DNA from: Beijerinckiaceae bacterium
GTDB taxonomy: Bacteria > Pseudomonadota > Alphaproteobacteria > Rhizobiales > Beijerinckiaceae
Direction: 5' to 3'
Assembly: GCA_027533425.1 (NCBI GenBank)
Contig: JAPZUD010000001.1
Span: 62,001 to 126,000 of the forward strand
DNA length: 64,000 nt
In this document: piece by piece, positions 21,055 through 37,555 of the stretch
How positions within the stretch are numbered: position 1 is the first letter of the stretch
Layout of the letters: the number at the start of each line of letters is the position of its first letter
Translations under genes and position numbers: made by a program
Notes under the pieces: generated by a model
The model's input: the letters and a program-made list of their open reading frames with translations, nothing else
Databases searched by the model: none
What the model was told of the DNA's origin: nothing

Positions 21055-21735
21055 ATGAAACTGCTGCTGATCGAGGATGTGCCGCCTTTGGCCCAGCTCA
21101 CCCGGGAGGCTCTGGAGGCCGAAGGTTTCACGGTTGACCATGCACCCGATCTGGAAGCCGCGCGCGCCATCCTTTCTGTTGCCCCACCGGATGTGATCGT
21201 TCTCGATCTCGGGCTGCCGGATGGCGACGGCCTCGACCTGCTCCATGGCCTGCGGAATGCCGGCAATGGCATTCCCGTGCTCGTCGTCACCGCGCGAGCA
21301 GGCCTCAATGACCGGATCGACGGCCTCGATCGTGGTGCCGATGATTACATCGTGAAGCCTGCAGCTCCGGCCGAGATTGCCGCACGTTGCAGGGCGCTTC
21401 TGCGCCGCCCCGGAGGCGTGTTGGGGCGGAAGCTGCAACTCGGCAATCTCGCGTTCGACACGGCATCACGAAGCGTGACGGCTGCTGGACGACCGGTTGC
21501 GCTCGCGCGCCGCGAAATCGACGTGCTGGAGGTACTCCTGCGCAAGCTGGGGCAATCCGTCCCGCGGCGGGTGATCGAAGATGCGATCTACACGCTGGAC
21601 GAAGCGCCCGGCCCCAATGCTCTGGAAGCGTCCGTGTCGCGCCTTCGGCGGCAACTGGCCGAAGCCGGGGCAAATGTGGAAATCCATACCATCCGGGGCA
21701 TCGGCTATCTCATCACCGAGGCGGGGGGAGCATGA
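21055..21735 (+). CDS. OmpR/PhoB-family response regulator
   Basis: The 226-residue protein has a receiver domain with phosphoacceptor D51 (VIVLDLGLPDGDG), acidic residues E7-D8 and K101 in DDYIVKPAAP. A C-terminal OmpR-type winged helix covers about 127-222 (SVSRLRRQLAEAG, IHTIRGIGYLI). It overlaps the kinase gene by four bases (ATGA). It resembles the TctD/QseB branch, whose members often control organic acid uptake; targets cannot be read here. Confidence 0.9.
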   Translation: MKLLLIEDVPPLAQLTREALEAEGFTVDHAPDLEAARAILSVAPPDVIVLDLGLPDGDGLDLLHGLRNAGNGIPVLVVTARAGLNDRIDGLDRGADDYIVKPAAPAEIAARCRALLRRPGGVLGRKLQLGNLAFDTASRSVTAAGRPVALARREIDVLEVLLRKLGQSVPRRVIEDAIYTLDEAPGPNALEASVSRLRRQLAEAGANVEIHTIRGIGYLITEAGGA

Positions 21736-23087
21736 GCCGGTCCCTGGTCACCACGCTCATTCGCCGGCTCCTGCTGGCCGGCGGGTTGCTCACCCTGCTC
21801 AACATCGTGTTTGTCACGGCCTATTACAGCTCCGATCCGGAGGGTTTGCGCCGCGAGAAGGTGAGCCACCAGATTGACCGACTGGCAGCTGCCCTGAAGG
21901 CGGGGCCGGATGGCCGTCTTGCCTTCATGCCCTCGGAGCGGTTGGCTGGCACCTTCACGCGCTACCCGGATGCCTATGCCTTCCGCATCGAGGATCATGC
22001 AGGTGCTGTTCTGGGCGAGGCAAATGCATCTCTCGTGCCGGCAGACCGCTGGAGCGTAGCCAATGGCCCGGATGCCTGGTGGAGCGATGTCCAGGTCAAT
22101 GGTCGATCCGTTCTCGTGGGTTCACGTCGGGCGAATATTGCAGGCGAGCCTGTCCGCATTGCCTTCGCGGCAGCGGGAGACCCCTCGAACCTGCTGCTCT
22201 TCGTTTATTTCGACGAGCTTTTCGTGCATGTCATCGTGTCGCTGTTGCCCTTCGCGATCTGTCTGATGATCGTGAATGCAGTGACCGTGCGTCAATCGTT
22301 GCGCTCGCTGGTTCATGCCGCGGATGCCGCGCGGAAAGCCGGCCCCAGCCATGGCATTGCTGCCCTGCCCACGCGCGGGCTCCCGACCGAAGTGCTGATC
22401 CTCGTCGAGGCCATCAACGACGCACTTCGCCGGTTGGGCGAGGCGCTTGAAGCCGAGCGTGCCTTTACCGCGGAAGCCGCGCATGCCTTGCGCACGCCAT
22501 TGGCGGTGCTGTCCGCACGTATCGAAACGCTGCCGAAAAGCGCTGAAATCAATGCCGTTCGCGCGGATATCACAGCACTTCGCCGCTTGGTGAATCAGCT
22601 TCTTTCGGCTGCGCAGGCCGATACGCTGGTCGTGGATCCAGCGCGTCAATGCGATCTCGTGGCTGTGGCCGGAGGTGTTGTCAGCGCGATGGCGCCGCTG
22701 GCAATCCGCGAGGGGCGGGGACTCGCGCTCGAGGGCGGTGCGCCGATCATGGTTCGTGGCGATGCCGACGGTATCGCACATGCCCTGCGCAATCTCATCG
22801 AGAACGCCCTGCGCTTCTCTCCGCCCGGCGAGGAGGTTCTCGTGCGCGTCGCCGAGCCGGGTGTTCTCATGGTGCTCGATCGCGGGCCAGGAATTCCCGA
22901 TGAGCAGAAGCCTTTGGTCACGAAGCGGTTCTGGCGCGCCAGTGCATCCGATCTGGGCGGCACGGGACTTGGTCTTGCGATTGTCCAGCGGATTGCCGAA
23001 GCGCATGGAGCTACGCTGGAGATACGGGACCGGCACGATGGTGGTGCCGTGATCGTGCTTCAGTTCTTGCCGGCTTCAGCCGGATGA
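21732..23087 (+). CDS. Membrane histidine kinase paired with the preceding regulator
   Basis: This 451-residue kinase has two membrane helices (about 8-31 and 165-187) enclosing a periplasmic sensor of about 130 residues. A linker follows, then the dimerisation helix with phospho-acceptor H251 (AEAAHALRTPLAVL) and an ATPase domain with NLIENALRFSP, DRGPGIP and GGTGLGLAIV. The layout is that of TctE/QseC kinases. The start at 21732 overlaps the regulator stop; a longer frame upstream is an artefact inside the regulator gene. The 137 bases after it hold no gene. Confidence 0.9.
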   Translation: MSRSLVTTLIRRLLLAGGLLTLLNIVFVTAYYSSDPEGLRREKVSHQIDRLAAALKAGPDGRLAFMPSERLAGTFTRYPDAYAFRIEDHAGAVLGEANASLVPADRWSVANGPDAWWSDVQVNGRSVLVGSRRANIAGEPVRIAFAAAGDPSNLLLFVYFDELFVHVIVSLLPFAICLMIVNAVTVRQSLRSLVHAADAARKAGPSHGIAALPTRGLPTEVLILVEAINDALRRLGEALEAERAFTAEAAHALRTPLAVLSARIETLPKSAEINAVRADITALRRLVNQLLSAAQADTLVVDPARQCDLVAVAGGVVSAMAPLAIREGRGLALEGGAPIMVRGDADGIAHALRNLIENALRFSPPGEEVLVRVAEPGVLMVLDRGPGIPDEQKPLVTKRFWRASASDLGGTGLGLAIVQRIAEAHGATLEIRDRHDGGAVIVLQFLPASAG

Positions 23088-23224: not shown

Positions 23225-25459
23225 CTATGCAGCGAGCGATTTCAGGAAGTCATCGACCTCCCGGTTCAGGCTGTCGATGACCGATTGAAGATGATCGGCC
23301 TGGGTCAGCATCGCCTGCGAGGCCTGTTCGGTTTCCTGTGTCGCGGCACTGACCTGGGTAATGGTCTGGGCAACTTCGTGGGTGCCGGAAGCCGTCTGCT
23401 GGGTATTTCTGGCGATCTCGCCGGTTGCGTTGCGCTGCTGCTCGACAGCCGCTGCAACACCGGTCGAGAGGTTGGAAATACTCTTGACGATGGCATTGAT
23501 CCGGTCGATCGCCGTGACGGCCTCGCCGGTCTTGGACTGGATTCCGGCGACCTGTGTCACGACTTCCTCGGCAGCACTGGCTGTCTGGTTGGCAAGGGCT
23601 TTCACCTCGCTGGCAACCACGGCGAAACCACGACCGGCTTCTCCCGCGCGCGCCGCCTCGATTGTCGCATTGAGCGCAAGCAGATTGGTCTGGCTGGCAA
23701 TGCTGCCGATAAGCTGGACCACCACGCCGATCCGGGTTGCAGCCTCCTGGAGGTCGCGGACAACATCGACCATCAGTCGGGATTGCTCCGCAGCTTCCCG
23801 GGAGATCTCGGTTGACTGCCCGATCTGGTTGGCGATTTCCTCGACAGATGCCGCGAGTTGTTCGGCGGCAGACGCCACTGTTGTCACAGATGCGGAATTC
23901 TCTTCCGATGAGCGGGCGACCCCTTCGGCCCGGACGAGCGTTGCGGCGGCTGACTGCCGGACCGACTCGGCATGGCTGCGCAACTCTCCTGACATGCGCT
24001 TGACCGACTCGACCACCCCTTTGACCGTGCTTTCGAACCGGGTCGCGAGATTCTGCTGACCGGAAATGTCTTCCCAAGCCACCATCGCTCCAAGCCTGCT
24101 GCCATCCGGCGAGAGGATGCTTGCCGCGGTAAGCGTGAACACGCGCCCTCCGTGCTTGAATGTCGTCCGGACACCTTCGGCGGGCAGGGTCTGAAGGCGA
24201 TGGTCATCAAGGCCGGCCGAGCCGATGAGATCCGATGCCTTGACGCCGGCAATCTCGCTGTTCATGCCGCTGGTGGACAGAAGCCCCGCAAGTGCAGGGT
24301 TGAGGTAGTCGATCCGCCAGTCATTGCTGCCATCAATCGTCATCACGCCGATCGGCATGCCGCTGACTGTCTGGCGCAGCTTGAAGGAATTGAGCACGTC
24401 CTGCCGCAAGGCGGAAAATGCGCGCGCCATGTCGCCGATTTCGTCCCTTTTGGCCTCGTATTCGACGAGCGTGCTGCTTTCTCCGCGGGCAAGATCCTTC
24501 AGCGCACTGGATGTCCTGACCAGGGGGCGGGCCATGAAGCGGCCGATGGCCAGCCCGAGCAGAAGGGCAAGCGGCAGGCAGATCAGGGCATAGATCCAGA
24601 GCTGATTGAGGAATTCCTCGCTTCTGCCCTTGAAGAGCCGGTCTGGCCTCAGGGTAGCAATCACAATTCCTTCCGCGCCGGTAATCGACGGCAGATGCTG
24701 GAGATGGGCGAGATAGCTCTCGCCGGCAATGTCCACCGCGCGCAGTGCATGCGTGCTCGCGATCGCCGCCTTCAGGCCGTCGCTGTCGATGCTGACCGCT
24801 TTGCCGGCACCGAGGGTGGAAACGGTCATTTTTCCACCGAAGAACAGCGCAATATCCGCCCCCGTCTTCTCCTTGATCTCCTGGAGAAGGGCATCGCTGG
24901 CCCGGGCGCCGATCTTCAGGGTTCCGACCAGCCCCCGGTTTGTATGCACCGGTGCCACGCCATCGAGAGCAGCCTGCCCGGATGTCGGGGAAACCGCGAG
25001 CCCTTGCGTGGCTTTGCCGTTGAGAGCATCCCGGATTTCCCTGGCCTGGGACTTGTTGTCTCCGCGCTGACCCGGATTGTGCCCGCGCATCACAACGATG
25101 CCGTTCGCATCCGTCAGTTCGAAGGTCGAGACAACCTTGTCGACCCGCTTAAGCGCCTCGAACTCACTTGTGGCGAGGGAGGTCAGCTGGGCCTCGTTTG
25201 CGATCTGCAAGGTCACGCCGACATTCGGCTTCCGGGCGATGATCTCGGTATAGGCCAGAATGCGCTGGTTGACTCCCCGCAGGGATTCCCGGACCTGCGC
25301 GGCGGCGGCCGCGACATCCGCCTGCTGCGCGTCCGTATTGATCCGTTGAACCGAGTTGAACGACAGCGCGGCGCAAATCCCGAATGCGACGGCGAAGATC
25401 GCCGTCGACCCTGCTGCATATTTAGGCGCCAGCCCCGTCACGGCAGCACTCTTGATCAT
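23225..25459 (-). CDS. Methyl-accepting chemotaxis protein (cache-HAMP-PAS-MA)
   Basis: From ATG 25459 (GGGGTG upstream) the product is 744 residues. A first helix (about 15-33) is followed by a periplasmic cache-type sensor ([20 protein letters not shown] and [17 protein letters not shown]). A second helix (about 290-310), HAMP, a PAS domain around 370-480 and the signalling domain follow, with the hairpin tip [33 protein letters not shown]. There is no C-terminal CheR-tether pentapeptide. It lies 92 bases downstream of the cytochrome c gene on the same strand and could be part of that sigma-54 transcript. A paralogue with the same order is at 50924-53167. Confidence 0.88.
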
Positions 25460-25551
25460 CAGAACACCCCGCTTACCGTTTGAAACATGGTGCATGATGA
25501 TCATAAGTTATTGAAATTAAGTGAATAATCGGCGGAGATCGCCACCGCTCG

Positions 25552-25938
25552 TCATTTGATGGGAATGCTGGCGGCCTTCGCCGGTTCGAGCGTTCCGGAG
25601 GCGGGGATCGCCCCGTGATTGGACAGCATGAAAGCGACAACCGAGAGCTTTTCCTCGTCGGTCAACTGAGCCGGGTTGTTGAACGGCATAAGCTGCATGT
25701 AGTCGAGCAACCCCTGCGCGTTGCCAAACTTCGAGGCAATCAGCGAACCTTCGCCCCAGATCGGCGTCTGGAACCCCTGACCGCGTTTCCCATCGGCACC
25801 ATGGCACAGGACGCAGGCCTGCTCATAGAGAGCCTTGCCTTCGAGAACCTGTTTGGAGGGGCCGGTCGCGCGGCTTGCGGTGCCATAAGCGGTTATTGCA
25901 AGGGCAACCAGTGCAACGATGCTGAGTGATTTTTTCAT
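25552..25938 (-). CDS. Periplasmic monoheme cytochrome c, partner of the SoxC-like enzyme
   Basis: The 128-residue precursor has a signal peptide (about 1-24). A single c-type heme site is C42-V-L-C45-H46, with M84 in YMQLMPF as probable axial ligand. It resembles the N-terminal cytochrome of SoxD and the small cytochromes of SorAB-type sulfite dehydrogenases, far shorter than full SoxD. It follows the molybdoenzyme gene by 74 bases that include a strong hairpin, and would take electrons from the molybdenum centre to the respiratory chain. Confidence 0.85.
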   Translation of the reverse strand: MKKSLSIVALVALAITAYGTASRATGPSKQVLEGKALYEQACVLCHGADGKRGQGFQTPIWGEGSLIASKFGNAQGLLDYMQLMPFNNPAQLTDEEKLSVVAFMLSNHGAIPASGTLEPAKAASIPIK

Positions 25939-25971
25939 GGGCTTTTGACACGTCGAAGAGGGTGGAAAGGC

Positions 25972-25996
25972 GGGCGCATCCGGCGAGGATGCGCCC
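25972..25996 (-). other. Perfect 10-bp intercistronic hairpin between soxC-like and cytochrome genes
   Basis: GGGCGCATCC, loop GGCGA, GGATGCGCCC is a perfect stem. It is not followed by a T-run on the minus strand, so it looks like an mRNA-stabilising or processing element that sets the enzyme:cytochrome ratio rather than a terminator. Confidence 0.5.
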
Positions 25997-26012
25997 TAGG
26001 CAGGTAACAGGG

Positions 26013-27395
26013 TCAGACGATCTCGATCTTGAATTTCGGGATCGACCAGTTGGCCATGCCAAGCGTGTTGAGCGGCACCTTCTCAGGTTGTGACGTACCG
26101 GCGTTGTCCGTCGTGCGTGTTTCGATCACGTGCTGGCCAGCCTTGGCATCCCATGGGAAGTCGAACCGCACCCAGGTATACTTGCCGAGATTGGGCGGCC
26201 GGATCGTCGCCATCTGCCAGGCCCCGCCATCGATCCGGTACTCGACATGTTTCACACCATGCTGGGGCGCCCAGGCGTAACCGCGCATGACATGCTGGCC
26301 TGCCGTCATCCGGGGCACTTCGCCCTTCTTCAGCGGATAATTCGCGGGAATGGAGGGCGATTGTTCAAGAACGAGGGGAACCGTGATCAGGGATTTCGGC
26401 GGCATCCAGGTGACCATCGGCCCCTTGATATCGGCAGCGGTAATGCCGGCGAGGAATTCGTCATTTGCCGCATCGAATTCCGGCGCCTGGTAATCCGGCC
26501 CGAGATAAACCTCGCCTTTGGTGTTGAGGCGGGTCCAGATCCGCTTGTCGGAAACCCTGATTTCGGTCACCCACTTGATCGATGCCGTGCCACCCCATCC
26601 GGGGACGACCACACGGACGGGCGCGCCATGATCCGGCGTAAGCGGATTGCCGTTCATGGCAAAGCAGATGCCCATATCGTGCTGCTGGGCTGCAACATCG
26701 GCATAAGGCATCGGCCGGCCCATATCGTTGCCGTCGACGCCGGACCAGAAAAGAACAGTCCTGGCGTTCGGCTTGATCCCGCAGCGGGAGAAGATCTCCG
26801 CCATCGAGACATACTGCCATTCGGCCTGGCCGACTGCGCCCATGACCCAGTTGCCACCGCCAACCTGCTGGCCGGTAAAGCCGCCCTGTTCCCAGAAAAG
26901 GGTGCGGCCATTGCCATGGCATTCCATGGTGGCGATGATCGTCTTCGACGGCATCTTGAGGAGATCCTCGTAGGAGATCTCCATCGGCCTCTCGACGGAG
27001 GATCCGTGAATCTTGAGCTTCCAGTTTGCCCGTTCCAGAACCGGCTTCTGCTCGGCGGTCGGGGTCGGGTAATGGTTGCGAACGTAGAATTCCTCCACCG
27101 GGGTCATGAAGGTTGAGAAGTTCCAGTAATTGCCGGAACGGACGGTGGCCCCGATATTCAGGACGCGGCTGTCATCCTTGATCAGGATCCGGCGAGGGGG
27201 AGCGGCAGGCGCTGCCGCCGGCGCCGGTGCGGCAGGGGCGGGGGCCTGCTGTGCTGCCGCTTCGGAGCCCACCATCGCGGCCGCGCCAAAGGCGCTTGCG
27301 GCCACGAACAGGCTGCGGCGATCCATATTGGTCCCGTTCTTGAGAACGTCGTTCACTAGCGCCTCGGCTTGGGCGCGCTGGCGTGTCTCGGACAT
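26013..27395 (-). CDS. SoxC/SorA-like sulfite-oxidase-family molybdoenzyme, Tat-exported
   Basis: From ATG 27395 (GGGAGGAAACCG upstream) the protein has 460 residues. A twin-arginine signal (MDRRSLFVAASAF, about 24-36) is preceded by a long n-region and followed by an Ala/Pro linker (about 50-66). The molybdopterin domain includes C159 in MECHGNGRT, the expected molybdenum ligand, and a Mo-co dimerisation domain forms the C-terminal third (YAWAPQHGVKHVEYRIDGG). By family it oxidises sulfite or a protein-bound sulfur intermediate in the periplasm. No soxXYZAB genes are present. It sits behind a sigma-54 promoter and an aioXSR-like regulatory trio, so the true substrate may be another oxyanion. 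Confidence 0.85.
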   Translation of the reverse strand: MSETRQRAQAEALVNDVLKNGTNMDRRSLFVAASAFGAAAMVGSEAAAQQAPAPAAPAPAAAPAAPPRRILIKDDSRVLNIGATVRSGNYWNFSTFMTPVEEFYVRNHYPTPTAEQKPVLERANWKLKIHGSSVERPMEISYEDLLKMPSKTIIATMECHGNGRTLFWEQGGFTGQQVGGGNWVMGAVGQAEWQYVSMAEIFSRCGIKPNARTVLFWSGVDGNDMGRPMPYADVAAQQHDMGICFAMNGNPLTPDHGAPVRVVVPGWGGTASIKWVTEIRVSDKRIWTRLNTKGEVYLGPDYQAPEFDAANDEFLAGITAADIKGPMVTWMPPKSLITVPLVLEQSPSIPANYPLKKGEVPRMTAGQHVMRGYAWAPQHGVKHVEYRIDGGAWQMATIRPPNLGKYTWVRFDFPWDAKAGQHVIETRTTDNAGTSQPEKVPLNTLGMANWSIPKFKIEIV

Positions 27396-27453
27396 CGGTT
27401 TCCTCCCGGTCTTTTCGTGAAGCGTTCCATCGAGACGCTCCAGACCGTGTGGA

Positions 27454-27469
27454 TGCAGTGGCCATGCCA
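27454..27469 (-). promoter_or_regulatory. Sigma-54 (-24/-12) promoter of the SoxC-like operon
   Basis: On the minus strand the sequence is TGGCATGGCCACTGCA, which fits TGGCACG-N4-TTGC with the invariant GG and GC at exact spacing and two mismatches. Transcription would start near 27443, about 48 bases before the ATG at 27395. The neighbouring gene encodes an NtrC-type activator with an intact GAFTGA loop, the form of regulator such a promoter requires. Confidence 0.8.
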
Positions 27470-27530
27470 TGCTGCATTGCGAGAAAACGTCGAATTATCT
27501 CAATTATATCAACAAGCGGCGCGGAGCCCT

Positions 27531-27577
27531 GTCCGAAAGGCCGGAATTCCCCTTCGGCGCGGTCCGGAATTCCGGAC
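27531..27577. promoter_or_regulatory. Pair of palindromic upstream activator sites
   Basis: GTCCGGAATTCCGGAC (27562-27577) is a perfect 16-bp palindrome. GTCCGAAAGGCCGGAA (27531-27546) shares GTCCG-N6-CGGA. Their centres are 31 bp apart, about three helical turns, and lie roughly 95 and 126 bases upstream of the predicted transcription start. This is where NtrC-family activators bind as paired dimers. They fall between the regulator's stop codon and the sigma-54 promoter. Confidence 0.65.
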
Positions 27578-27581
27578 TGCG

Positions 27582-28943
27582 TTATTCGCCGGACCTGATC
27601 TCGAGCTTCCTGATTTTCTCGAACAGGGTTGATCGAGAGATGTCGAGGCGCTGGGCGGCGAGCGTGACGTCACCGCCCGTTGCCGCCAGCGCAGCCTGGA
27701 TGGCTCGGCGTTCGGCCGAATCCCGGCTGTGCTGGAGCGAGACCGGTGGCTCGACACCAGCCCTGCGTTGCATGCGCTCGGGGAAAAGATCCGCCGGCTG
27801 GATCAGCTCGTCGTCAGAGAGGGCCACGGCACGCTCGACCCGGTTCCGCAATTCACGGATATTGCCCGGATAATCATGTGCGAGCAGGGCATCCTCGGCG
27901 AGCGAGGTGAATGTCTTCGGGCCCGTCCCGAAGCTCATCGTGAATTCGCCCAGAAACCGGTTCGCCAGCATGAGAATGTCGTCGCCGCGGGCGCTCAGCG
28001 GGGGAACGTTCACAATGATGACGGCCAGTCGGTAATAGAGATCCTCCCGGAAGCGACCGTCCTTTACGCGTTGGGTAAGGTCGGCATTGGTGGCAGCAAC
28101 GATGCGGGCACGGGATGCAATCTGCCGATCGCCACCGACACGCATGAAGGTTCGATCCTGGAGCAGGCGAAGCAGCTTGGCCTGCATGGGCAGGGGCATT
28201 TCCGCGATCTCATCGAGAAACAGGATGCCGTTGCCGGCCTGCTCGACAAAACCGATCCGTCGATTTGCCGCGCCGGTAAAGGCACCTTTCTCATGGCCAA
28301 AGAACTCGCTTTCCAGAAGTTCCGGCGGGATGGCTGCGCAATTCAGCGCAACGAAGGGTTCATGGCTGCGATCGCCCCTGGCATGGAGAAGACGGGCAGC
28401 CACTTCCTTGCCGGCACCACTCGGGCCCGTCAGAAGCACGGTCGAATGGATTCCGGAAAGGCGCCGCAATTGCCCCTCCACCATGGCGATCGCCGGCGAT
28501 CGGCCGAGTTCCGAACCGTCGGTCAGGGCCCAGCGGGGCGCGAGAAGTTTCTCGATCCGGGCCAGCAAGGCATCGATCTCGAACGGTTTGGTCATGTAGT
28601 CGGCTGCACCGGCCTTCATGAGCCGAACGGCCTGATCGATATCGCCGAAACCGGTAATGAAAAGGATCGGCGTCCCGTAGATTGCCGGTGCGATCGCCCG
28701 GTAGATCTCCTCGCCAGACATGTCCGGCAAGCGAATGTCGCAAAGGATGGCATCAGGCTGGATATGCCCGAGTTCCCGAATGGCATCGCGCCCTGTCCGG
28801 AACCAATGGGTCCTGAACCCTTCCACGCCGAACCATTCCACCAGTGACTCGCCCATGACCGGATCATCCTCGATCAGGGCGATGAGCGGTGCAGGAATCC
28901 CGCCCGGAAACCTAGGCGGCGCGTTGAAGACCTGGCTCAGCAT
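27582..28943 (-). CDS. NtrC-family sigma-54-dependent response regulator (AioR-like)
   Basis: The 453-residue protein has a receiver domain with D69 (AILCDIRLPDMSG) and a lysine in YMTKPF. An AAA+ domain follows, with Walker A GPSGAGKEV, the sigma-54 contact loop GAFTGA, Walker B GILFLDEIAEM and an R-finger region. A Fis-type helix-turn-helix closes it (GGDVTLAAQRLDISRSTLFEKI). It overlaps the kinase gene by 32 bases. It should activate the sigma-54 promoter directly downstream when phosphorylated. Gene order makes it the AioR analogue of a three-component system. Confidence 0.9.
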   Translation of the reverse strand: MLSQVFNAPPRFPGGIPAPLIALIEDDPVMGESLVEWFGVEGFRTHWFRTGRDAIRELGHIQPDAILCDIRLPDMSGEEIYRAIAPAIYGTPILFITGFGDIDQAVRLMKAGAADYMTKPFEIDALLARIEKLLAPRWALTDGSELGRSPAIAMVEGQLRRLSGIHSTVLLTGPSGAGKEVAARLLHARGDRSHEPFVALNCAAIPPELLESEFFGHEKGAFTGAANRRIGFVEQAGNGILFLDEIAEMPLPMQAKLLRLLQDRTFMRVGGDRQIASRARIVAATNADLTQRVKDGRFREDLYYRLAVIIVNVPPLSARGDDILMLANRFLGEFTMSFGTGPKTFTSLAEDALLAHDYPGNIRELRNRVERAVALSDDELIQPADLFPERMQRRAGVEPPVSLQHSRDSAERRAIQAALAATGGDVTLAAQRLDISRSTLFEKIRKLEIRSGE

Positions 28944-30345
28944 GCGGAATCCTGATGGTTATGGCGGTCCCTGGCGGACCGTGGATGGCAAGGGTGGCGG
29001 ATTGTTCCTCGAGGATCCTGGAGACAATCCAAAGCCCCAGTCCGGTTGTGGCGCGCTCGTCCCGAATCCCAGGCGTCTGCAGCGATGCCCGGGCTTCATC
29101 GGGGAGTCCGGGTCCCTGATCCGAAACGGAAAGGAGCACCGCCGCCTCGTCCGACCGGACATCGAACACAACCTGGGTGCCGGGCGGCGATGCCGCGCAG
29201 GCATTCAGGGCAAGGTTGAGGGCAAGCTGGCGGAAGGCCTGCGCCGGAACGCGGACACCTTCGCCAAGCGCGTTGTTCCAGACGAGCGCCAGCTCCCGTC
29301 GATGGGCTTCGCTCTCGATCAGGAAGCGGAGGTCATCGATGTCGGCCGATGTCAGATTCCGGTCATCGCTGTCGCCCCTCCAGACAACCAGCGAAGCCCG
29401 GACGATGTTCCGGATTCCGGTCAGTCCTCGCTCGAGGAGGGTTGCCGCGCGCTCTCGCCGCTCGGGGTCATCGCCATGCCGCTGGATCATTCTGACCGCG
29501 TTGAACAGACCACCCAGCGGATTGTTGACCTCATGAGCGATGGCCGATGCATAGCGCCCGAGCAGCGCACGCCGCTCCTGGTCGGCGAGACGGTGAAGCA
29601 ACGCTTCGCGCTCGCTAATGGCAAGGGCAGCGGCATTGTAGCGGCGATAGGCCTTCCCGGCCTCTGTATCCGGCGGTGGCAGCTTGCGCTCCGGAATGGG
29701 TTCGAGCCGCCCATCGCCGGCGCGGGCCAGATAGGACGACAACCGAAGGAGCGGGCGCAATGTGCGGTGGACAACCAGCCAGCCCAGCCCGGCAAAGAGG
29801 AGCGTCAGCGCGCCATTCACCCCGAGAAGGGTCCAGAATGTTTCCTGTCGCACCTGCTGGATGTTTGAAATGTCGATCTCCGCCGCGATCCGCCCGATCT
29901 GCTTGCCACCCTCGCGAAGCATGCGATGCACCCATACCCGTCCGCCGGGATCGGCAAGATCCGGATCGCCGCGGTTATCGTGCGCCTTGTCTGGCGCCTT
30001 GACGCCCACCGGATAGGTCGCCGGATCCAGGGCAGCCAGGATCGTGTCATTCGGGAGGATGACGAGCACGATCCTCGGGTTCACGCCGGAATACTTGTGG
30101 CGCGCGCGGTCGAGGACATCGAAAGCCTCCCAGGGCTCCTGGCGGATGACCGGCGAGTGGAGCGCGGTGGAAAGGCCATCGAGATATGCGCCCGTCAATT
30201 GCCGGAAGCTCTGGGCCTGATCCCGCGCAAGGCGATCAAGAACCACCTTCGACATGGCCGCAGCAATGCCGATCATCAGCAGGGCCACTATCAGCGGTGC
30301 CCGGATGGCCAATGGCCATCTTTGGGGATGGAAAACAGCAGTCAT
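28912..30345 (-). CDS. Membrane histidine kinase (AioS-like) of the three-component system
   Basis: Starting at ATG 30345, whose codon overlaps the binding-protein stop (ATGA), the product is 477 residues. It has a helix at about 16-34, a periplasmic sensor of roughly 130 residues, a second helix (about 172-193), HAMP, and the phospho-acceptor H271 in YASAIAHEVNNPLGG. The catalytic domain has LNLALNACAASPP, SDQGPGLP and TGLGLWIV. The HEVNNPLGG box and the pairing with an NtrC-type regulator are typical of NtrB/DctB-like kinases. It probably reads the exported binding protein encoded just before it. Confidence 0.9.
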   Translation of the reverse strand: MTAVFHPQRWPLAIRAPLIVALLMIGIAAAMSKVVLDRLARDQAQSFRQLTGAYLDGLSTALHSPVIRQEPWEAFDVLDRARHKYSGVNPRIVLVILPNDTILAALDPATYPVGVKAPDKAHDNRGDPDLADPGGRVWVHRMLREGGKQIGRIAAEIDISNIQQVRQETFWTLLGVNGALTLLFAGLGWLVVHRTLRPLLRLSSYLARAGDGRLEPIPERKLPPPDTEAGKAYRRYNAAALAISEREALLHRLADQERRALLGRYASAIAHEVNNPLGGLFNAVRMIQRHGDDPERRERAATLLERGLTGIRNIVRASLVVWRGDSDDRNLTSADIDDLRFLIESEAHRRELALVWNNALGEGVRVPAQAFRQLALNLALNACAASPPGTQVVFDVRSDEAAVLLSVSDQGPGLPDEARASLQTPGIRDERATTGLGLWIVSRILEEQSATLAIHGPPGTAITIRIPHAEPGLQRAA

Positions 30346-31220
30346 CCGAATTCCTGCGCGCGCTTCCAATGTTCAGCGATGCCATCGAACAGGCTTGAGT
30401 CCCCGGCAACAAACCCGTCGAGCCTCAGCATGCCAAGGATCATCCTTCCGTTCGGGTCGTTGGGCATGCCGACCAGCGCGTCTCTGATGGCGGTTCGCAG
30501 GGCCGGGTCTACGCCGCGGGCTGCCGCGATCGGGGGGAAGCCCATAGGCTCCGAAACATGCTGGATTCTCGTCCCGGAAACGAGGGCGGGCTCGATCTCG
30601 CGCATGACATCCCAGACATAACCGTCAACCGAGCCCGAATGGGCGAGACCGGAGGCCACGGCACGGATGACATTGCGATGTCCGAAAGTAAAAAATGTCC
30701 GGGAAAAGAAGGTCGCCGGGCTTTCGCGCAGGCCCGCCAGCAGGGATCGGGTTGCCAGAAAGCCTGAATTGCTGTCCGGATCCGAAAAGGCGTGAATATC
30801 GCCGCGCAAGGCAGCGATGCTGTCGCTGTCCCGTCCGGCCCGGGTGACGATGTAGGCCCGGTACAGGGGGGCCTGCTTGTAGAGTGGAACGGCAACAAGC
30901 CTGAGTTGCTCGCGGTTCTGGACAAAGGGGAAGCCGCAGATCCATGCGGCATCAAGCTGGTTTGCCACCAGAAGAGACGTGATCTCCTGATAGGTTCTTC
31001 GCTTGACCAGTTGGACCGGCCGCCCGATCTGCCTCGACAGATAGCGCTCGAGATCGGCGATCAGCTGGATATCCGAATCGAGGAAGACAGGCGTCAGGCC
31101 GAACAGAACGGGTCGCGCTGCTTGCACGAGGTTCGGTGTCGCCAAGGCGGCCGTCGCAAGTCCTGCGGCGAGCACATGGCGGCGGGATACAGTCTTCGGC
31201 CGGGGCTTTGCTGAACGCAT
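30342..31220 (-). CDS. PhnD-like exported binding protein (AioX-like sensor)
   Basis: From ATG 31220 (GGGGAGG upstream) the precursor has 292 residues with a Tat-like leader (VSRRHVLAAGLATAALA). The mature protein is a PhnD-type (PF12974) phosphate/phosphonate-binding fold: LFGLTPVFLDSD, LDAAWICGFPFV, DPDSNSGFLATR. The only cysteine is C95. In arsenite-sensing AioX a single conserved cysteine is important (Cys106 in Agrobacterium numbering, from memory); whether C95 is equivalent needs an alignment. No permease or ATPase is adjacent. Instead a kinase and regulator follow in overlapping frames, so it is a sensor subunit rather than a transporter component. Confidence 0.82.
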   Translation of the reverse strand: MRSAKPRPKTVSRRHVLAAGLATAALATPNLVQAARPVLFGLTPVFLDSDIQLIADLERYLSRQIGRPVQLVKRRTYQEITSLLVANQLDAAWICGFPFVQNREQLRLVAVPLYKQAPLYRAYIVTRAGRDSDSIAALRGDIHAFSDPDSNSGFLATRSLLAGLRESPATFFSRTFFTFGHRNVIRAVASGLAHSGSVDGYVWDVMREIEPALVSGTRIQHVSEPMGFPPIAAARGVDPALRTAIRDALVGMPNDPNGRMILGMLRLDGFVAGDSSLFDGIAEHWKRAQEFG

Positions 31221-31315
31221 GGAAGCCTCCCCTGATGCCCCGTCTTCCGCGTGGCTTTCTCCAGAGTGATCGAGAATGCACCGGCGATCAAGCGGTCCCA
31301 TTCCTGACCGGTAGT

Positions 31316-32194
31316 TCACGCAACGTCCTGTCCAAGGGCCAAGGCTGTTGCCCCCTCGAGCCGCCCGATCTGGGCAAGCTCGGACCTCAGCGTCTCCGGG
31401 CCCATCTGGTCGATCGGGAGGTTGACGAACGCTGCGACACGGGCACTCAACTGTCGGTAGGCGATGCGAAAGGCCTCTCGCCGTTCGGCATTGCTTGTCC
31501 CTGCTTCCAGCGGATCGGCAATGCCCCAATGGACAACAAGGGGATGTCCTGGCCAGTTCGGGCATTTCTCTCCGGCAGCGTTGTCACAGACGGTGATGAC
31601 GAAATCCATGCCGGGGGCCCCGGCTTCGGCAAAGGCTTGCCACGTCTTGGATTGCAGGCCGTCGGTCTCATAGCCAAGGCCGGACAGAAGACGGAGCACT
31701 TCGGGATCAACAACACCTCTGGGACGTGATCCGGCCGAATAGGCCCGGATTCGACCCTGGCCCTCGCGGTTGATCAGGGCTTCGGCCATGATGGAGCGTG
31801 CCGAATTATGGGTGCACAGGACGAGGACCGAGTAACGGGGCCTTCCTTCTTCCTGTTCCCTGAGTGCGGGGATCGCCATTGACGGCCGGTCCATGTCGAC
31901 CGGATCGAGGCATCGGCCCAGCGTTGCAAGCATGCTGTCCGTTGCTGCGCGATCGACTGCATAGACAACGCGGCGTCCCTCCTTTCGTGATCGAACGAGG
32001 CCGGCACTCTCGAGCTGGGCCAGGTGGGTCGAGAGGGTGTTGTGCGGAACCGCGATCAGCCGGGCGATATCTCCGGCGCCGAGGCCAAAGGGCTGGTGGC
32101 GTGCAAGAAGCCGAAGGACGGCGAACCGAGACGATTGGGCAACAGCCTGAAGCTGTTCAACAAGCGTTTCGGGGTTGAACGGTGCCGATGCCAT
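31316..32194 (-). CDS. ArsR-ArsC fusion: arsenic repressor joined to arsenate reductase
   Basis: One 292-residue protein carries an ArsR-family winged helix (about 1-90; [33 protein letters not shown]) followed by a low-molecular-weight-phosphatase-type arsenate reductase (about 120-265). The reductase P-loop is C127-THNSA-R133, and C203 and C211 in [11 protein letters not shown] match the cysteine relay of thioredoxin-coupled ArsC. The ArsR half lacks the classic metal-binding ELCVCDL motif. Only C95 lies in the linker, so arsenic sensing may use other thiols. It is divergent from gapdh-arsJ and upstream of the sensor trio on the same strand (95-base gap). Confidence 0.88.
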
Positions 32195-32422: not shown

Positions 32423-33466
32423 ATGAGGGTAGGCATCAATGGCATGGGACGCATTGGCCGGCTGGCTTTCCGGGCGGCGTTCGGAAGCGCCCGCAGGCCG
32501 GCGGATGATCCGCGCCGGGCCAATCGGCTGGAGGTCGTTCATGTCAACGAGATCAAGGGAGGCGCAGCGGCAACGGCTCATCTCCTTGAGTTCGATTCGA
32601 TGCAGGGCCGCTGGCATGCCGCCATTGCCGCGGATGGCGAGGGGGCATTGCGCATCGACGACCGGATCGTCCGGTTCACCGAATGCAAGACTTCGGCAGA
32701 GATTCCTTGGGCTGATCTCGGTGTGGACCTCGTGCTGGAATGCACCGGCAAGTTTCTTGACCGCAAGACCATCGAAGGCCATCTCCGGCGCGGGGCCAAG
32801 CGGGTGATCGTGGCCGCGCCGGTCAAGGTGGACGGCGTCCTCAACATTGTCGTGGGCGTGAACGAACATCTCTATGATCCCGCCAGCCACGACATTGTAA
32901 CCGCGGCTTCCTGCACCACGAATTGCCTCGCGCCAGTGGTGAAGGTGCTGCATGGCGAGATTGGCATCCGGCACGGGCAGATCACGACGATTCATGATCC
33001 CACAAACACCAATGTTGTTGTGGATGCGCCGCACAAGGACCTCCGGCGGGCCCGCTCGGCCATGCTGTCGCTCCAGCCCACCACAACCGGCAGCGCGACG
33101 GCGATCGGCCTGATCTACCCCGAGCTCAAGGGCAAGCTGGATGGACACGCCGTCCGGGCGCCCGTTCTCAATGCCTCACTGACGGACTGCGTGTTCGAAA
33201 TGGCGCACCCGGTCACGGCCGAAGATGTCAATGCGCTGTTCCGCGCCGCCGCCGCCGGGCCGCTGGCCGGGATTCTGGGGTTCGAAGGCCGGCCGCTCGT
33301 CTCCATCGACTACCAGGGAGATACCCGGTCCGCGATTGTCGACGGTCTTTCGACGCTGGTCACCAATGGCACCATGCTCAAGGTCTATGCCTGGTACGAT
33401 AACGAGATGGGCTATGCCTGCCGCATGGTTGATCTCGCCTGCCATCTCGAAGCCACCGGGCTCTGA
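32423..33466 (+). CDS. gapdh: Glyceraldehyde-3-phosphate dehydrogenase of the arsenate-efflux pair
   Basis: From ATG 32423 the enzyme has 347 residues: NAD-binding [17 protein letters not shown], catalytic C164 in [11 protein letters not shown], and the C-terminal [16 protein letters not shown]. In arsenic operons this GAPDH adds arsenate in place of phosphate, giving 1-arseno-3-phosphoglycerate, which the adjacent ArsJ exports. The N-terminal insertion around [21 protein letters not shown] is typical of the type found in ars operons. It starts behind a candidate ArsR operator and ends two bases before arsJ. A housekeeping role is unlikely in this context. Confidence 0.9.
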
Positions 33467-33467
33467 G

Positions 33468-34724
33468 ATGCAATCGCCAGCCAACACCCCGAGATCCGGC
33501 GGGCTGCGCAACTATGCCATCGTCACGGCTGCCTATTGGGGCTTCACGCTGACCGACGGCGCCCTGCGGATGCTGGTGCTGTTCACCTTTTTCAAGCTCG
33601 GCTATTCGCCGTTCACGCTGGCCTTCCTGTTCCTGCTCTATGAGGCGGCTGGCATTCTTGCGAACATGATCGGCGGCTGGCTGGCCGCGCGATACGGTAT
33701 AAGGCGGATGCTGATCGTCGGGCTGGCAACCCAGATCCTTGGATTTCTGACACTCTCCGCCATGCAGCCGGGCTGGCCATCTGCGTTCCTCGTGACCTGG
33801 GTCGTGCTTGCACAGGGCATTTGCGGGATCGCGAAGGACCTGACCAAGACAGCCTCCAAATCCGCGATCAAGCTCACCGCTGCGGAGGCCAGAGGCCATG
33901 GCGAGGGGCGTCTCTTCAAATGGGTGGCCTGGTTCACCGGATCGAAGAACGCGATGAAGGGCTTCGGCTTCTTTCTTGGCGGCGTGCTGCTCGAGGCCTT
34001 TGGCTTTTCGCCGGCACTCTGGCTGATGGCGGGTACGTTGAGCCTGATCCTGGCCGGCGTTGTGTTTTCGCTCCCGCCGCTGCAGGGCAAGGCGAAAGCG
34101 AGCAGGAGCGCCCGCGAATTGTTCGGCAAGAGCCGGGGCGTCAACCTGCTCGCTCTGGCCAGGATCGGCCTGTTCGGTGCCCGCGATGTCTGGTTCGTCG
34201 TCGGTGTGCCGGTCTTCCTTTACGCCAATGGTTGGACCTTTCCCATGGTCGGTGCGTTCCTCGCGCTCTGGACCATCGGCTATGGCGTGGTTCAGGCGGC
34301 AGCGCCTGCCGTTGTCAAGCGCAGCGAGGACGGGCTTTCCAGCGAGGTTCCCGCCGCGCGGTTATGGTCTCTCCTGCTGCTGCTGGTCCCCGCAGGCCTT
34401 ACCGGCATTCTCGCGCTGGATCTTGCCCGCCCTGACTTTGTCCTCGTTGCGGGGCTCTGCCTGTTTGGCATAATCTTCGCCGTGAACTCCTCGGTGCATT
34501 CCTACCTTATCCTGGCCTATGCCGGCTCGGAGAAGGCGGCGGAGGATGTCGGGTTCTACTACGCCGCCAATGCTCTGGGGCGCTTTCTCGGAACCTTGCT
34601 ATCGGGACTGCTTTTCCAGCTTGGTGGCCTTCCTGCCTGCCTCATCGGCTCGGCGGTCATGCTGGCAACCTGCTGGCTCGCAACCCAGGCGCTGCCAAAC
34701 GGGGCCGGTCAGGCTCGTCAATAG
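33468..34724 (+). CDS. arsJ: ArsJ organoarsenical efflux permease
   Basis: The 418-residue MFS protein starts at ATG 33468, one base after the GAPDH stop codon. The N-terminal block NYAIVTAAYWGFTLTDGALRML and the internal GICGIAKDLTKTASKSAIK and GFYYAANALGRFLGTLLSG are distinctive for ArsJ rather than other MFS members. ArsJ exports 1-arseno-3-phosphoglycerate, which breaks down outside to arsenate, giving net arsenate extrusion without reduction. Together with ArsC the cell has both a reductive and a non-reductive arsenate route, though no arsenite pump (ArsB/Acr3) lies in this window. Confidence 0.92.
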   Translation: MQSPANTPRSGGLRNYAIVTAAYWGFTLTDGALRMLVLFTFFKLGYSPFTLAFLFLLYEAAGILANMIGGWLAARYGIRRMLIVGLATQILGFLTLSAMQPGWPSAFLVTWVVLAQGICGIAKDLTKTASKSAIKLTAAEARGHGEGRLFKWVAWFTGSKNAMKGFGFFLGGVLLEAFGFSPALWLMAGTLSLILAGVVFSLPPLQGKAKASRSARELFGKSRGVNLLALARIGLFGARDVWFVVGVPVFLYANGWTFPMVGAFLALWTIGYGVVQAAAPAVVKRSEDGLSSEVPAARLWSLLLLLVPAGLTGILALDLARPDFVLVAGLCLFGIIFAVNSSVHSYLILAYAGSEKAAEDVGFYYAANALGRFLGTLLSGLLFQLGGLPACLIGSAVMLATCWLATQALPNGAGQARQ

Positions 34725-34849: not shown

Positions 34850-35806
34850 ATGAACACTTCGATCAAGGTGACTGCACTGTCTTTCGCGTTGTCCGTGGCG
34901 CTGAGTGCATCGGTGATGGCGCTCGACAGCCGCTTCAAGGATGCTGATGGCGACCTGCTCGCGGACATCCCGACCAATCCGGCCGAACAGATCGATCCAC
35001 CGGTCCTGATCTTTGCCTATACCCCTGTCGAAGATCCGGCGGTCTACGCGAAGGTCTGGGATGGCTTCCTGCGCCATATGGAAAAGGTGACGGGCAAGAA
35101 GGTCCAGTTCTTCCCGGTCCAGTCGAATGCTGCTCAGATCGAAGCGATGCGTGCGGGCCGCCTGCACGTTGCTGCGTTCAACACGGGTTCCAACCCGATC
35201 GCGGTGAACTGCGCCGGCTTCCGCCCCTTCGCCATGATGGCCTCGAAGAAGGACGAGTTCGGCTACAAGATGGAGTTCATCACTCATCCCGGGTCCGGGA
35301 TCGAGAAGATCGAGGACATCAAGGGCAAGAAGATGGCCTTCACGGCCGAAACCTCGAATTCTGGTTTCAAGGCTCCGTCGGCCCTGATGCGCGACCAGTT
35401 CAAGATGGAAGCCAAGCGCGACTTTGAACCCGTTTTCTCCGGCAAGCACGACAATTCGATCCTTGGCGTTGCCAACAAGGATTACCCGGCAGCGGCTATC
35501 GCGTCTTCCGTCAAGGACCGCATGATCGCCCGCGGTGTCGTCAAGGCTGATCAGCTGAAGGTGATCTATGCCTCGCAATCGTTCCCGACCTCGGGTTATG
35601 GCACGGTCTACAATCTGAAGCCGGAATTGCAGGAAAAGATCAAGCAAGCCTTCTTCAGCTTCAATTGGGAAGGCTCCGATCTCCTGAAGGAGTTCGAGAA
35701 GTCGGAACCGCCGCAGGAAAAGTTCATGCCGATCTCCTACAAGGACAAGTGGCAGGTGGTCCGCCAGATCGATCAGGCTATGGACATCAAATATACCTGC
35801 AAGTGA
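34850..35806 (+). CDS. phnD: PhnD-type phosphate/phosphite/phosphonate binding protein
   Basis: The 318-residue precursor has a signal peptide (about 1-25) and a PhnD fold: ILIFAYTPVEDPAVYAKVWDGF-type opening, FFPVQSNAAQIEAMRAGRLHVAAFNTGSN and TAETSNSGFKAPSALM, the SNSG-type turn contacting the oxyanion. The ligand may be phosphonate, phosphite, phosphate or, given the location, arsenate or an organo-oxyanion. It is the first gene of a four-gene importer behind a Pho box and directly follows arsJ. Confidence 0.85.
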   Translation: MNTSIKVTALSFALSVALSASVMALDSRFKDADGDLLADIPTNPAEQIDPPVLIFAYTPVEDPAVYAKVWDGFLRHMEKVTGKKVQFFPVQSNAAQIEAMRAGRLHVAAFNTGSNPIAVNCAGFRPFAMMASKKDEFGYKMEFITHPGSGIEKIEDIKGKKMAFTAETSNSGFKAPSALMRDQFKMEAKRDFEPVFSGKHDNSILGVANKDYPAAAIASSVKDRMIARGVVKADQLKVIYASQSFPTSGYGTVYNLKPELQEKIKQAFFSFNWEGSDLLKEFEKSEPPQEKFMPISYKDKWQVVRQIDQAMDIKYTCK

Positions 35807-35836
35807 TCGGCGGCGGTTAGTTGGAGTTCCATATCG

Positions 35837-35862
35837 GATCGCCCGGTGAAGACCGGGCGATC
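35837..35862 (+). terminator. Attenuating hairpin between phnD and phnC
   Basis: GATCGCCCGGT, loop GAAG, ACCGGGCGATC is a perfect 11-bp stem with a tetraloop, followed by TTTGCTT. It probably lets most transcripts stop after the binding-protein gene, giving excess binding protein over membrane subunits. Confidence 0.65.
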
Positions 35863-35915
35863 TTTGCTTGACATAGCCGCGTCAGCGTGCGGCTTTTGGC
35901 ACTGAGGATATCCCG

Positions 35916-36752
35916 TTGCTGACGATCACCAATCTCGAAAAGCGCTACAAGGCGGGCGACCGGGCCCTCAAGGGCGTTTCGATGACGTTGGCGCCCGGTG
36001 ATATTGTTGGCCTGATCGGGCCTTCTGGTGCCGGAAAATCGACGCTGATCCGTTGCGTGAACCGGCTGGTCGATCCGACAGCGGGTTCGATCCGTCTGGG
36101 CAACATCGACCTTACCACACTTGACGGCCCGGCCCTGCGCAAGGCCCGTCGCCGGATCGGCATGATCTTTCAGGAATATGCCCTCGTCGAGCGCCTGACC
36201 GTCATGGAAAATGTCCTTTCCGGCCGGCTTGGTTATGTCGGCTTCTGGCAGAGTTGGTTCCGGCGTTTCCCGGAAGCCGATGTCCAGCGTGCATTCTCCC
36301 TGCTCGAGCGCGTCGGGCTGATCGACCATGTCGACAAGCGGGCCGATGCCCTGTCGGGCGGGCAGCGCCAGCGCGTTGGCATTGCCCGGGCGCTTGCCCA
36401 GGATCCGGAACTCCTTCTGATCGACGAACCGACAGCCAGCCTCGATCCGAAAACGTCACGTCAGGTGATGCGGCTGATCCTTGAGCTCTGCACCGAGCGG
36501 AAGCTTGCCGCCATCGTCAACATCCATGATGTTGCCCTGGCCCAGATGTTTCTCCCGAGGATTGTCGGGCTTCGCGCCGGCGAGATCGTCTATGATGGCC
36601 CGGCCAGCGGCCTGAATGCCGAGGTGCTCACACGCATCTATGGCGAGGAAGACTGGACAAAGACATCAAACAGTCAATCCGATGAACTGGATGATGACCC
36701 GCCGGCATCGTTGGTGTTGCCGGAATCCCGAGCTGTGGCAGCAGCCAGATGA
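35916..36752 (+). CDS. phnC: PhnC-type ABC importer ATPase
   Basis: The 278-residue ATPase starts at a TTG (35916) preceded by GAGGATATCCCG. Walker A is GPSGAGKST, the signature [17 protein letters not shown] and Walker [13 protein letters not shown]. The PhnC-specific Q-loop stretch [27 protein letters not shown] is present. A Pro/Ser/Asp-rich tail of about 35 residues (after DWTKTSNSQ) extends beyond the usual length. It overlaps the first permease gene by four bases. Confidence 0.88.
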
Positions 36753-37555
36753 CCGCGACCGCTGGCCCCGCGCGCATCTGGAAGCGCCCGCGCCTCGTGG
36801 AACAGACCTGGCTGCGCTGGGCCATCAGCCTCTCTGTGCTGCTTTATCTCGGGCTGGCTTTCGGCAGCATCGATGTGAACTGGACCCGCGTGTCCGAGGG
36901 GCTCGTGCGTGCCGCGCGGCTGTTCTCGGGATTTCTGCAGCCGGATTTCAAATCTCGATGGGGGGATATCCAGCAGGGTCTTATCGAGAGCCTGACGATG
37001 ACAGTCTGCGCCACGGTATTCGGGCTGATCCTTGCACTTCCCATCGGCCTCGGGGCCGCTCGCAATGTCGCGCCTTTCTGGCTGTACGGAATATGCCGCG
37101 CCATCATCGCCCTGGCGCGTGCTTTCCAGGAGATTATCGTTGCGATCCTCTTTGTCGCGATGTTCGGTTTCGGCACGTTCGCCGGGTTTCTCACGCTCTC
37201 CGTGTCCACGATCGGTTTCCTGTCCAAGCTGATTGCCGACGACATCGAGGAGATCGATCCGGCGCAGGTCGAGGCCATCCGGGCCACCGGCGGTGGATTC
37301 TGGCAGGTGATGGATTACGCCGTTGCATCGCAGGTCATGCCGCGCTTTGTCGGCCTGACAGCCTACAAGGTCGATATCAATTTCCGCGAAAGCTCGGTGA
37401 TCGGCATCGTGGGTGCCGGCGGGATCGGCGCCACCCTGAACACGGCGCTCGATCGGTATGAATTCGACAGCGCCGCCGCCATATTGCTGATCATCATCGG
37501 CATCGTGATGCTCTGCGAGTATGCGTCGGGCTGGATCAGGAAGGCGATGGCGTAA
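36749..37555 (+). CDS. phnE: PhnE-type ABC importer permease, first copy
   Basis: This 268-residue inner-membrane permease has about six helices. It carries the PhnE motif block [22 protein letters not shown] (the EAA-type coupling loop) and [20 protein letters not shown] near the C-terminus. It overlaps phnC at ATGA and the second permease at TAATG, so translation of the three is coupled. It forms a heterodimeric channel with the next product. Confidence 0.88.

Follow-up and report, generated by a model that had tools for sequence, protein, structure and literature searches.

The stretch analysed here, called the window, comprises 64,000 nucleotides (positions 62,001–126,000 of contig JAPZUD010000001.1, assembly GCA_027533425.1, from a Beijerinckiaceae bacterium; all coordinates are window-based), and its minus strand carries a cluster in which genes for an AioX-type sensor, an AioS-type kinase, and an AioR-type regulator (together, XSR) lie ahead of genes for a molybdoenzyme of the sulfite-oxidase family and a small cytochrome c. 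As read from its sequence, this cluster is likely to be an arsenite-inducible operon for periplasmic arsenic oxidation in which the sulfite-oxidase-family enzyme takes the place of the arsenite oxidase AioBA, with inorganic arsenite as the most likely substrate; the substrate assignment would follow from the regulation of the enzyme and its displacement of AioBA. The enzyme falls in a clade of its own and, in some soil and water bacteria, probably serves as a type of arsenite oxidase not recognised before. The original prediction had proposed an aio-type layout driving a sulfite-oxidase-family enzyme instead of AioBA, and the case is now stronger than it was then, given the AioX pocket, a predicted AioR operator, and the recurrence of the arrangement among relatives. 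It had also given correctly the minus-strand order (arsRC, binding protein, kinase, NtrC-type regulator, promoter, molybdoenzyme, cytochrome c, chemoreceptor), the 95-base gap between arsRC and the binding-protein gene, and the cysteine in an ECHGNGR motif of the enzyme.

The binding protein had been described as PhnD-like. It matches PF12974, and by sequence it is more exactly AioX: its best PDB matches are to AioX of NT-26 (6esv and 6eu7, E 6.6e-82; 6esk, E 2.8e-81), followed by ArrX (E 4.5e-41) and then by HtxB, PtxB, and a phosphonate-binding protein (E 6e-9 to 6e-8). The NT-26 pocket is reported to consist of Tyr88, Cys106, Tyr131, Ser161, Ser163, His192, and Asp210, with Cys106 bonding arsenite and a loop of Val56, Phe57, and Leu58 closing over it (PMC5908839). 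All ten residues (NT-26 numbering) are unchanged in the window AioX and in 17 of 17 further AioX sequences linked to the present enzyme, or 18 of 18 together. The pocket is not retained by default, because among five Burkholderiales AioX loci with no molybdoenzyme detected nearby (L157, L158, L159, L160, and L164) the homologues of L157, L158, and L159 have Ser in place of Cys106 together with loop changes; that of L164 keeps Cys106 with other positions altered, and that of L160 keeps all ten residues. Row L146/L125, which was mis-extracted, was left out of this comparison. Such homologues, some with altered pockets, in other Burkholderiales contexts are what could favour the idea that XSR senses another oxyanion, such as phosphite or sulfite, and that the arsenic genes nearby are incidental. 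We regard this idea as very improbable, since every one of the 18 recovered enzyme-linked AioX sequences keeps Cys106 and the V-F-L loop and since AioX and ArxX are reported to have bound arsenite alone of ten oxyanions tried (PMC5908839).

Other XSR modules came to light in the same survey. By eye, those of L157 and L159 lie beside genes with several CxxCH haem motifs, and the modules of L157, L159, and L158 may sense something besides arsenite and control extracellular electron transfer. At L147, L155, L161, L162, and L163, modules with an altered AioX signature (an A-F-L loop, Cys-Asp at the pocket Cys, and in four of the five Thr for Ser163) adjoin subunits of the dimethyl sulfoxide (DMSO)-reductase family, that of L161 being ArrA-like, below the cut-off, in the part that was run; these sensors possibly respond to another oxyanion.

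The AioS kinase and the NtrC/AtoC-type AioR are encoded directly next to aioX, and they are 34–46% and 42–55% identical, respectively, to AioS and AioR proteins from AioBA loci. A predicted AioR operator and a predicted sigma-54 promoter lie upstream of the structural genes. DNase footprinting of AioR in A. tumefaciens GW4 is reported to have protected GTTCGGATTTCCGAAC (PMC5335332), and the window operator, GTCCGGAATTCCGGAC, is identical to it at 13 of 16 positions. This is the sole site in the 64-kb window with three or fewer mismatches to the footprint (two matches, both strands counted). Because 0.67 such matches are expected and 19 of 100 shuffled windows hold two or more, the position of the operator, rather than its mere presence, is what tells. 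The sequence GTYCGGANNTCCGRAC occurs as a single exact copy in the genome, and likewise in G012, with no copy in G004, G005, or G008. The sigma-54 site that the original prediction placed before the enzyme gene, TGGCATGGCCACTGCA, lies 59–74 bases ahead of the ATG; sites with two or fewer mismatches occur at chance frequency across the window (34 found vs 32 expected), so that the site alone is weak, and a site at a similar distance recurs in relatives.

These elements were followed in 12 alphaproteobacterial loci having both XSR and upstream sequence (the window, L016–L023, L035, L039, and L081). A sigma-54 site lies 65–78 bases before the start codon in nine of the 12, and by the rule used none was found at that distance in L019, L022, or L023. 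The best operator box under a 14-letter consensus matches at 11 to 14 of 14 positions and lies 122–183 bases before the start; it is equalled in at most one of 200 shuffles in 10 of the 12 loci, with weaker results for L019 (6 of 200) and L023 (22 of 200). This consensus was written after the window site was known, and the footprint mismatch scan is a fairer test of the window itself. Judged by the strict footprint sequence, the 12 loci match at 10–14 of 16 positions, with at least 12 in the window, L021, L022, L035, and L039 and 11 in L019, L020, L023, and L081; of 1020 overlapping tiles of the window, 17 reach at least 12 of 16, the window site included. The published degenerate AioR motif is of little use, with 37 of 255 window tiles reaching at least 14 of 16, and palindromes and the footprinted sequence carry the operator case instead. 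Across eight betaproteobacterial XSR loci (L026–L030, L033, L034, and L037), a GTnAC-N6-GTnAC palindrome precedes the enzyme gene in six and occurs nowhere else in the DNA examined from those loci; it was not found in L027 or L030 and is present in L036 too. By a looser pattern, a sigma-54-like site lies within 400 bases upstream in seven of the eight. Neither the palindrome nor a sigma-54-like site was found in the four loci without visible XSR that were checked (L024, L025, L031, and L032).

Among 84,980 species genomes scanned, 24 loci for the enzyme were recovered at 63–97% identity, a lower bound because the scan needs near-exact peptides. A search for the conserved gene order had been proposed in the original prediction, and here AioS and AioR, together with AioX where the contig reaches, adjoin the enzyme in 19 of the 24 relatives (the AioR match of L023 is only partial). 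In L024 and L038 a contig end cuts the locus, and in L032 only 1.8 kb of upstream sequence is visible. The enzyme is rare, occurring in 2 of 385 genomes of a class sample (the window's own included) and in 3 of 300 genomes of a Burkholderiales sample (centre included). All but one of the 24 relatives are records of metagenome-assembled genomes (MAGs), the exception, by its title, being Bosea sp. Tri-44 (L019). Two Bosea records (L019 and L022) carry the present enzyme; Bosea sp. WAO is reported to use aioBA.

With the AioA model TIGR02693 (cut-off 359 bits), no match over the cut-off was found under any of 26 handles of enzyme-bearing genomes (25 genomes, since G057 repeats G012); thus neither the window's own genome nor Bosea sp. 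Tri-44 (G041) has a DMSO-reductase-family AioA by this measure. Weaker matches, the best at 164.5 bits, occur under all 26. Run on the class sample, this model puts 16 of 385 genomes over the cut-off. An Arx-like subunit was likewise found under none of 26 enzyme-bearing handles at E 1e-60, in a search that recovered four of four positive controls, one of them the query source. Completeness is 99% or more for five of the genomes (G000, G004, G008, G012, and G096); G096 was in the Arx-like search and not in the AioA search. In the class sample, AioX occurs in 11 genomes and AioA above 1000 bits in nine, eight of which have AioX. In the Burkholderiales sample, AioX occurs in 34 genomes at 41 places, and these 34 together with G046 include nine with AioA above 1000 bits and two with other over-cut-off matches. 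Of the 28 AioX places outside the nine AioA genomes and not beside the present enzyme, 20 were examined, and 15 of these have a DMSO-reductase-family subunit beside XSR; four of the 15 subunits (one in part) and the L082 subunit were run against NCBIfam, and none was named above cut-off.

In a 48-row AioX tree (L143 repeats L029 among the 19 enzyme-linked rows), the enzyme-linked sensors fall at three places among AioBA-linked sensors. Well-supported branches force three label changes, which may be gains or losses, and a single clade is rejected by the approximately unbiased test (p-AU 7e-50). This tree supersedes an earlier one without Burkholderiales AioBA rows, which gave four label changes, two of them forced. 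Grouping of the regulatory trio with sulfite- or taurine-responsive systems had been named beforehand as an outcome that would speak against the original prediction; the tree covers only the binding protein and has no sulfite or taurine systems among its rows, and in it the sensors group with AioBA-linked AioX. Gene arrangement follows the same lines. In Betaproteobacteria the aioX and enzyme genes are divergent, and the same divergence is seen between aioX and aioA in eight of nine Burkholderiales AioA genomes (in G485 they are 44 kb apart). In Alphaproteobacteria XSR and the enzyme gene are co-directional, as is XSR with aioBA wherever a retrieved locus contained both. In G089, AioX matches equally at two places (L084 and L085), with AioA found only beside the second. 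Taken as a class, we think it probable, a shade less firmly than the reading of the window operon itself, that the enzyme represents a separate kind of arsenite oxidase with a sulfite-oxidase fold and no relation to the DMSO-reductase-family enzymes Aio, Arx, and Arr, and that in three or more alpha- and betaproteobacterial lineages it and AioBA have been exchanged while the arsenite sensor stayed the same.

Enzymes of the sulfite-oxidase family hold a single pyranopterin with the molybdenum ligated by Cys. The window enzyme has both domains of this family (PF00174, Oxidored_molyb; PF03404, Mo-co_dimer), and its closest matches among solved structures are 4pw3 (E 4.8e-34), 2xts (E 6.5e-30), and 2blf (E 1.1e-26), which we take to be SorT, SoxC, and SorA, respectively. 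The SoxC/SorA fold assigned in the original prediction thus stands at the level of the family; by NCBIfam cut-offs the enzyme is neither SoxC (155.9 bits vs 420 for TIGR04555) nor SorA (141.2 vs 600 for NF052245), and assignment as SorT fails as well (154.1 vs 570 for NF052247). A twin-arginine leader (RR 26–27) precedes the mature protein, and the Mo ligand, Cys159, lies within ECHGNGR. In the alignment, CHGN occurs at the Mo ligand in 25 of 25 clade members vs 0 of 32 reference rows, and 6–7 residues (about 292–298) are inserted directly before the conserved Tyr302, with R-L-N-T-[KR]-G-E within the insertion in 25 of 25 members. A Tyr-to-Thr change at the catalytic Tyr, considered at one stage, was dropped when the alignment showed this insertion and a conserved Tyr302. 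Arg106, His108, Arg164, and Tyr302, positions that we presume to line the sulfite oxidase active site, are invariant in 22 of 22 sequences, as are the twin arginines. The 24 clade members used in the enzyme tree form one clade (Shimodaira–Hasegawa-like approximate likelihood ratio test, SH-aLRT, 100; stem 1.94; the program warned of long branches). On plasmids, only relatives below 60% identity to the enzyme were found.

The conserved fold and active-site residues, together with a cytochrome partner presumably like that of SorAB and SorTU, are the grounds for supposing that the enzyme is a true sulfite dehydrogenase placed under arsenite control, for example for removing sulfite or thiol-derived sulfur species released by arsenic stress. 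Against a plain sulfite role stands a separate SoxC above cut-off in the genome; each of the 17 genus members searched has one too, and five of these carry the present enzyme. The failure to reach the SoxC, SorT, and SorA cut-offs and the replacement of AioBA, rather than its accompaniment, argue the same way, and we therefore consider this explanation improbable. SorA over the cut-off was found in none of the 25 genomes searched. A different possibility is that the arsenite-controlled enzyme oxidises some other trivalent or sulfur-bearing arsenic species (methylarsenite, thioarsenite, or thioarsenate) and not inorganic arsenite. The same regulatory evidence applies to this explanation, arsJ–gapdh and arsRC adjoin in the window, and the clade's own insertion beside Tyr302 means that the pocket may differ from those of known sulfite oxidases. 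An enzyme that occupies the place of AioBA, under the same sensor and in three parts of the sensor tree, is most simply explained by the same reaction, which makes this alternative unlikely. Of the two substrates originally put forward, an arsenic-linked one is thus favoured and retargeting to sulfite less so, with neither proven. Inorganic arsenite also fits the chemistry, as reduced human sulfite oxidase is reported to form an arsenate complex at its Mo site with a Mo–As distance of 3.20 Å, resembling the 3.25 Å of arsenite oxidase (PMC5432002).

Several observations weigh against arsenite oxidation by this enzyme or soften the support for it. Upstream sequence is available for L025 and L031 and shows no XSR, and L032 lacks XSR in its visible 1.8 kb. 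Genes like arsR/arsC, acr3, arsJ, or gapdh lie near the enzyme in only nine of the 24 relatives (L016, L019, L020, L027, L030, L031, L032, L035, and L038), and none of these was found in the DNA examined for L025. Retention of Cys106 is by itself no proof of an arsenic enzyme, because L160 and L164 keep it with no molybdoenzyme detected nearby, and in the parts of the AioX study covered sulfite is not among the ligands tried (PMC5908839). The absence of aioA is softer than it appears, because MAG records account for 23 of the 24 relatives. The close relatives L016–L018 match the strict footprint at only 10 of 16 positions, a background level. An AlphaFold model of the enzyme has a mean pLDDT (predicted local distance difference test) of 62, with much of the active site below 50, and the insertion cannot be placed in it. 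Sulfite may still be a substrate, because the enzyme keeps the Arg/His/Arg positions common to sulfite oxidases. The case as a whole was built from sequence.

The arsenic linkage claimed in the original prediction thus holds within the window, where arsRC, gapdh, and arsJ are present, and less widely beyond it: an arsenic neighbour is common and, at nine of 24 loci, not the rule. The count covers arsR/arsC-like, acr3, arsJ, and gapdh genes. At three loci in which no XSR was seen (L031, L032, and L038), the enzyme has arsR/arsC-like genes, acr3, or arsJ in its neighbourhood; the arsC-like proteins score below the arsC cut-offs. An aquaporin candidate in L024 resembles the MIP protein of L031; Pfam gave no confirmation, and L024 was not counted with the arsenic genes.

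We propose the following mechanism for arsenite oxidation, the early steps of which have sequence support. AioX, with its full arsenite pocket, would serve as the sensor; AioS and AioR would relay the signal; and AioR would act through the palindrome at 27562–27577 on the sigma-54 promoter at 27454–27469. For the later steps, we infer that the twin-arginine translocation (Tat) system would export the enzyme with its Mo-pyranopterin cofactor held by Cys159, that the lone pair of As(III) would attack Mo=O to give As(V), that electrons would pass singly to the co-encoded cytochrome c, and that arsenate would then be handled by ArsC, GAPDH, and ArsJ. The small cytochrome c is the presumed electron acceptor of the enzyme, and a cytochrome of the same family lies downstream of the enzyme gene in relatives. 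A shared aioC-type cytochrome was considered and rejected: clustering first joined two AioBA-locus cytochromes to those of the present loci, and this is supported neither by the alignment nor by tblastn, which gave no match for the window cytochrome at E 1e-4 in ten AioBA-type loci (L084–L093). The NT-26 cytochrome is absent from the PDB matches listed for the window cytochrome. In L020, L022, and L081 the cytochrome frame, at 248–276 amino acids, has roughly double the length and seems, by eye, to include a second cytochrome c domain.

Features of the arsenic locus in the window. Family names come from Pfam, NCBIfam cut-offs, and PDB sequence matches.
Feature	Coordinates	Strand	Basis
ArsR-ArsC fusion: ArsR-type repressor and low-molecular-weight-phosphatase (LMWP)-type arsenate reductase domain	31316..32194	-	Pfam HTH_20/HTH_5 and LMWPc
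AioX, periplasmic arsenite-binding sensor	30342..31220	-	PF12974; PDB AioX; pocket residues conserved
AioS, sensor histidine kinase	28912..30345	-	HATPase_c, HisKA
AioR, NtrC-type: receiver, sigma-54 activator, Fis helix-turn-helix	27582..28943	-	Pfam
AioR-type operator (predicted) GTCCGGAATTCCGGAC, perfect palindrome	27562..27577	.	footprint similarity
Sigma-54 -24/-12 promoter (predicted) TGGCATGGCCACTGCA	27454..27469	-	sequence pattern
Sulfite-oxidase-family molybdoenzyme	26013..27395	-	PF00174 and PF03404, alignments
Small exported c-type cytochrome, one CxxCH	25552..25938	-	PF13442/PF00034
Methyl-accepting chemotaxis protein	23225..25459	-	MCPsignal, HAMP
ArsJ-associated GAPDH	32426..33466	+	NF033735 above cut-off
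ArsJ organoarsenical efflux transporter, major facilitator superfamily	33468..34724	+	NF033734 above cut-off; start codon taken from frame

The regulatory genes are closely packed: the ATG of aioS overlaps the stop codon of aioX, and aioR overlaps aioS. The ArsR-ArsC fusion scores above the cut-off of NF033788, with the arsC models below theirs in NCBIfam, and the GAPDH and ArsJ genes adjoin arsRC and diverge from it. The chemoreceptor gene (open frame from 25504) follows the cytochrome gene after 92 bases, and a chemoreceptor gene is also found downstream in the relative L017 (84%). Because GW4 is reported to have an arsenite chemoreceptor under AioR control (PMC5335332), the window chemoreceptor may, by analogy, belong to the same operon and respond to arsenite. 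Behind arsJ, at 34850–38373 on the plus strand, lies a phnD-phnC-phnE-phnE-type ATP-binding cassette transporter of the phosphonate/phosphate type, whose binding protein, the sole component run against NCBIfam, scores above the TIGR01098 cut-off; it resembles the phn1 operons reported within arsenic islands (PMC3834237). Beside the island, plus-strand frames at 21055–23087 read like a two-component response regulator and a sensor kinase.

Among known systems, the AioXSR–AioBA loci of NT-26 and A. tumefaciens GW4 share with the present loci the sensor, kinase, regulator, operator type, and sigma-54 promoter, as well as the gene order in Alphaproteobacteria and the divergent order in Betaproteobacteria, and differ in encoding AioB (Rieske) and AioA (DMSO-reductase family) where a sulfite-oxidase-family enzyme and a different cytochrome c are found here. 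SorT, SorA, and SoxC share the fold family, the Mo-ligand Cys, the conserved Arg and His residues, a Tat-type leader, and a cytochrome c partner; unlike them, the present enzyme has CHGN at the ligand Cys, the 6–7-residue insertion before Tyr, and linkage to AioXSR, and it is without the WNPxG C-terminal motif of most non-SoxC reference rows. In the ArxXSR and ArrXSR modules, XSR likewise controls an arsenic molybdoenzyme and is able to change the enzyme that it serves (PMC5908839), although ArxA and ArrA are members of the DMSO-reductase family. No description of AioXSR driving a sulfite-oxidase-family enzyme was found among the PMC titles and abstract openings listed, a scope outside which many subscription papers and all preprints fall. 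In the literature so covered, the nearest published proposal is a SoeABC-like gene of Thioalkalivibrio, a sulfur-enzyme relative put forward as an alternative arsenite oxidase and belonging to a different family; SoeABC is cytoplasmic and of the DMSO-reductase type, with no XSR link in the parts of that paper covered (PMC6620896).

Arsenite oxidation by the present enzyme looks directly testable in Bosea sp. Tri-44. If it is true, another molybdenum centre would have been recruited convergently to arsenic chemistry, and surveys based on aioA and arxA would undercount arsenite oxidisers.

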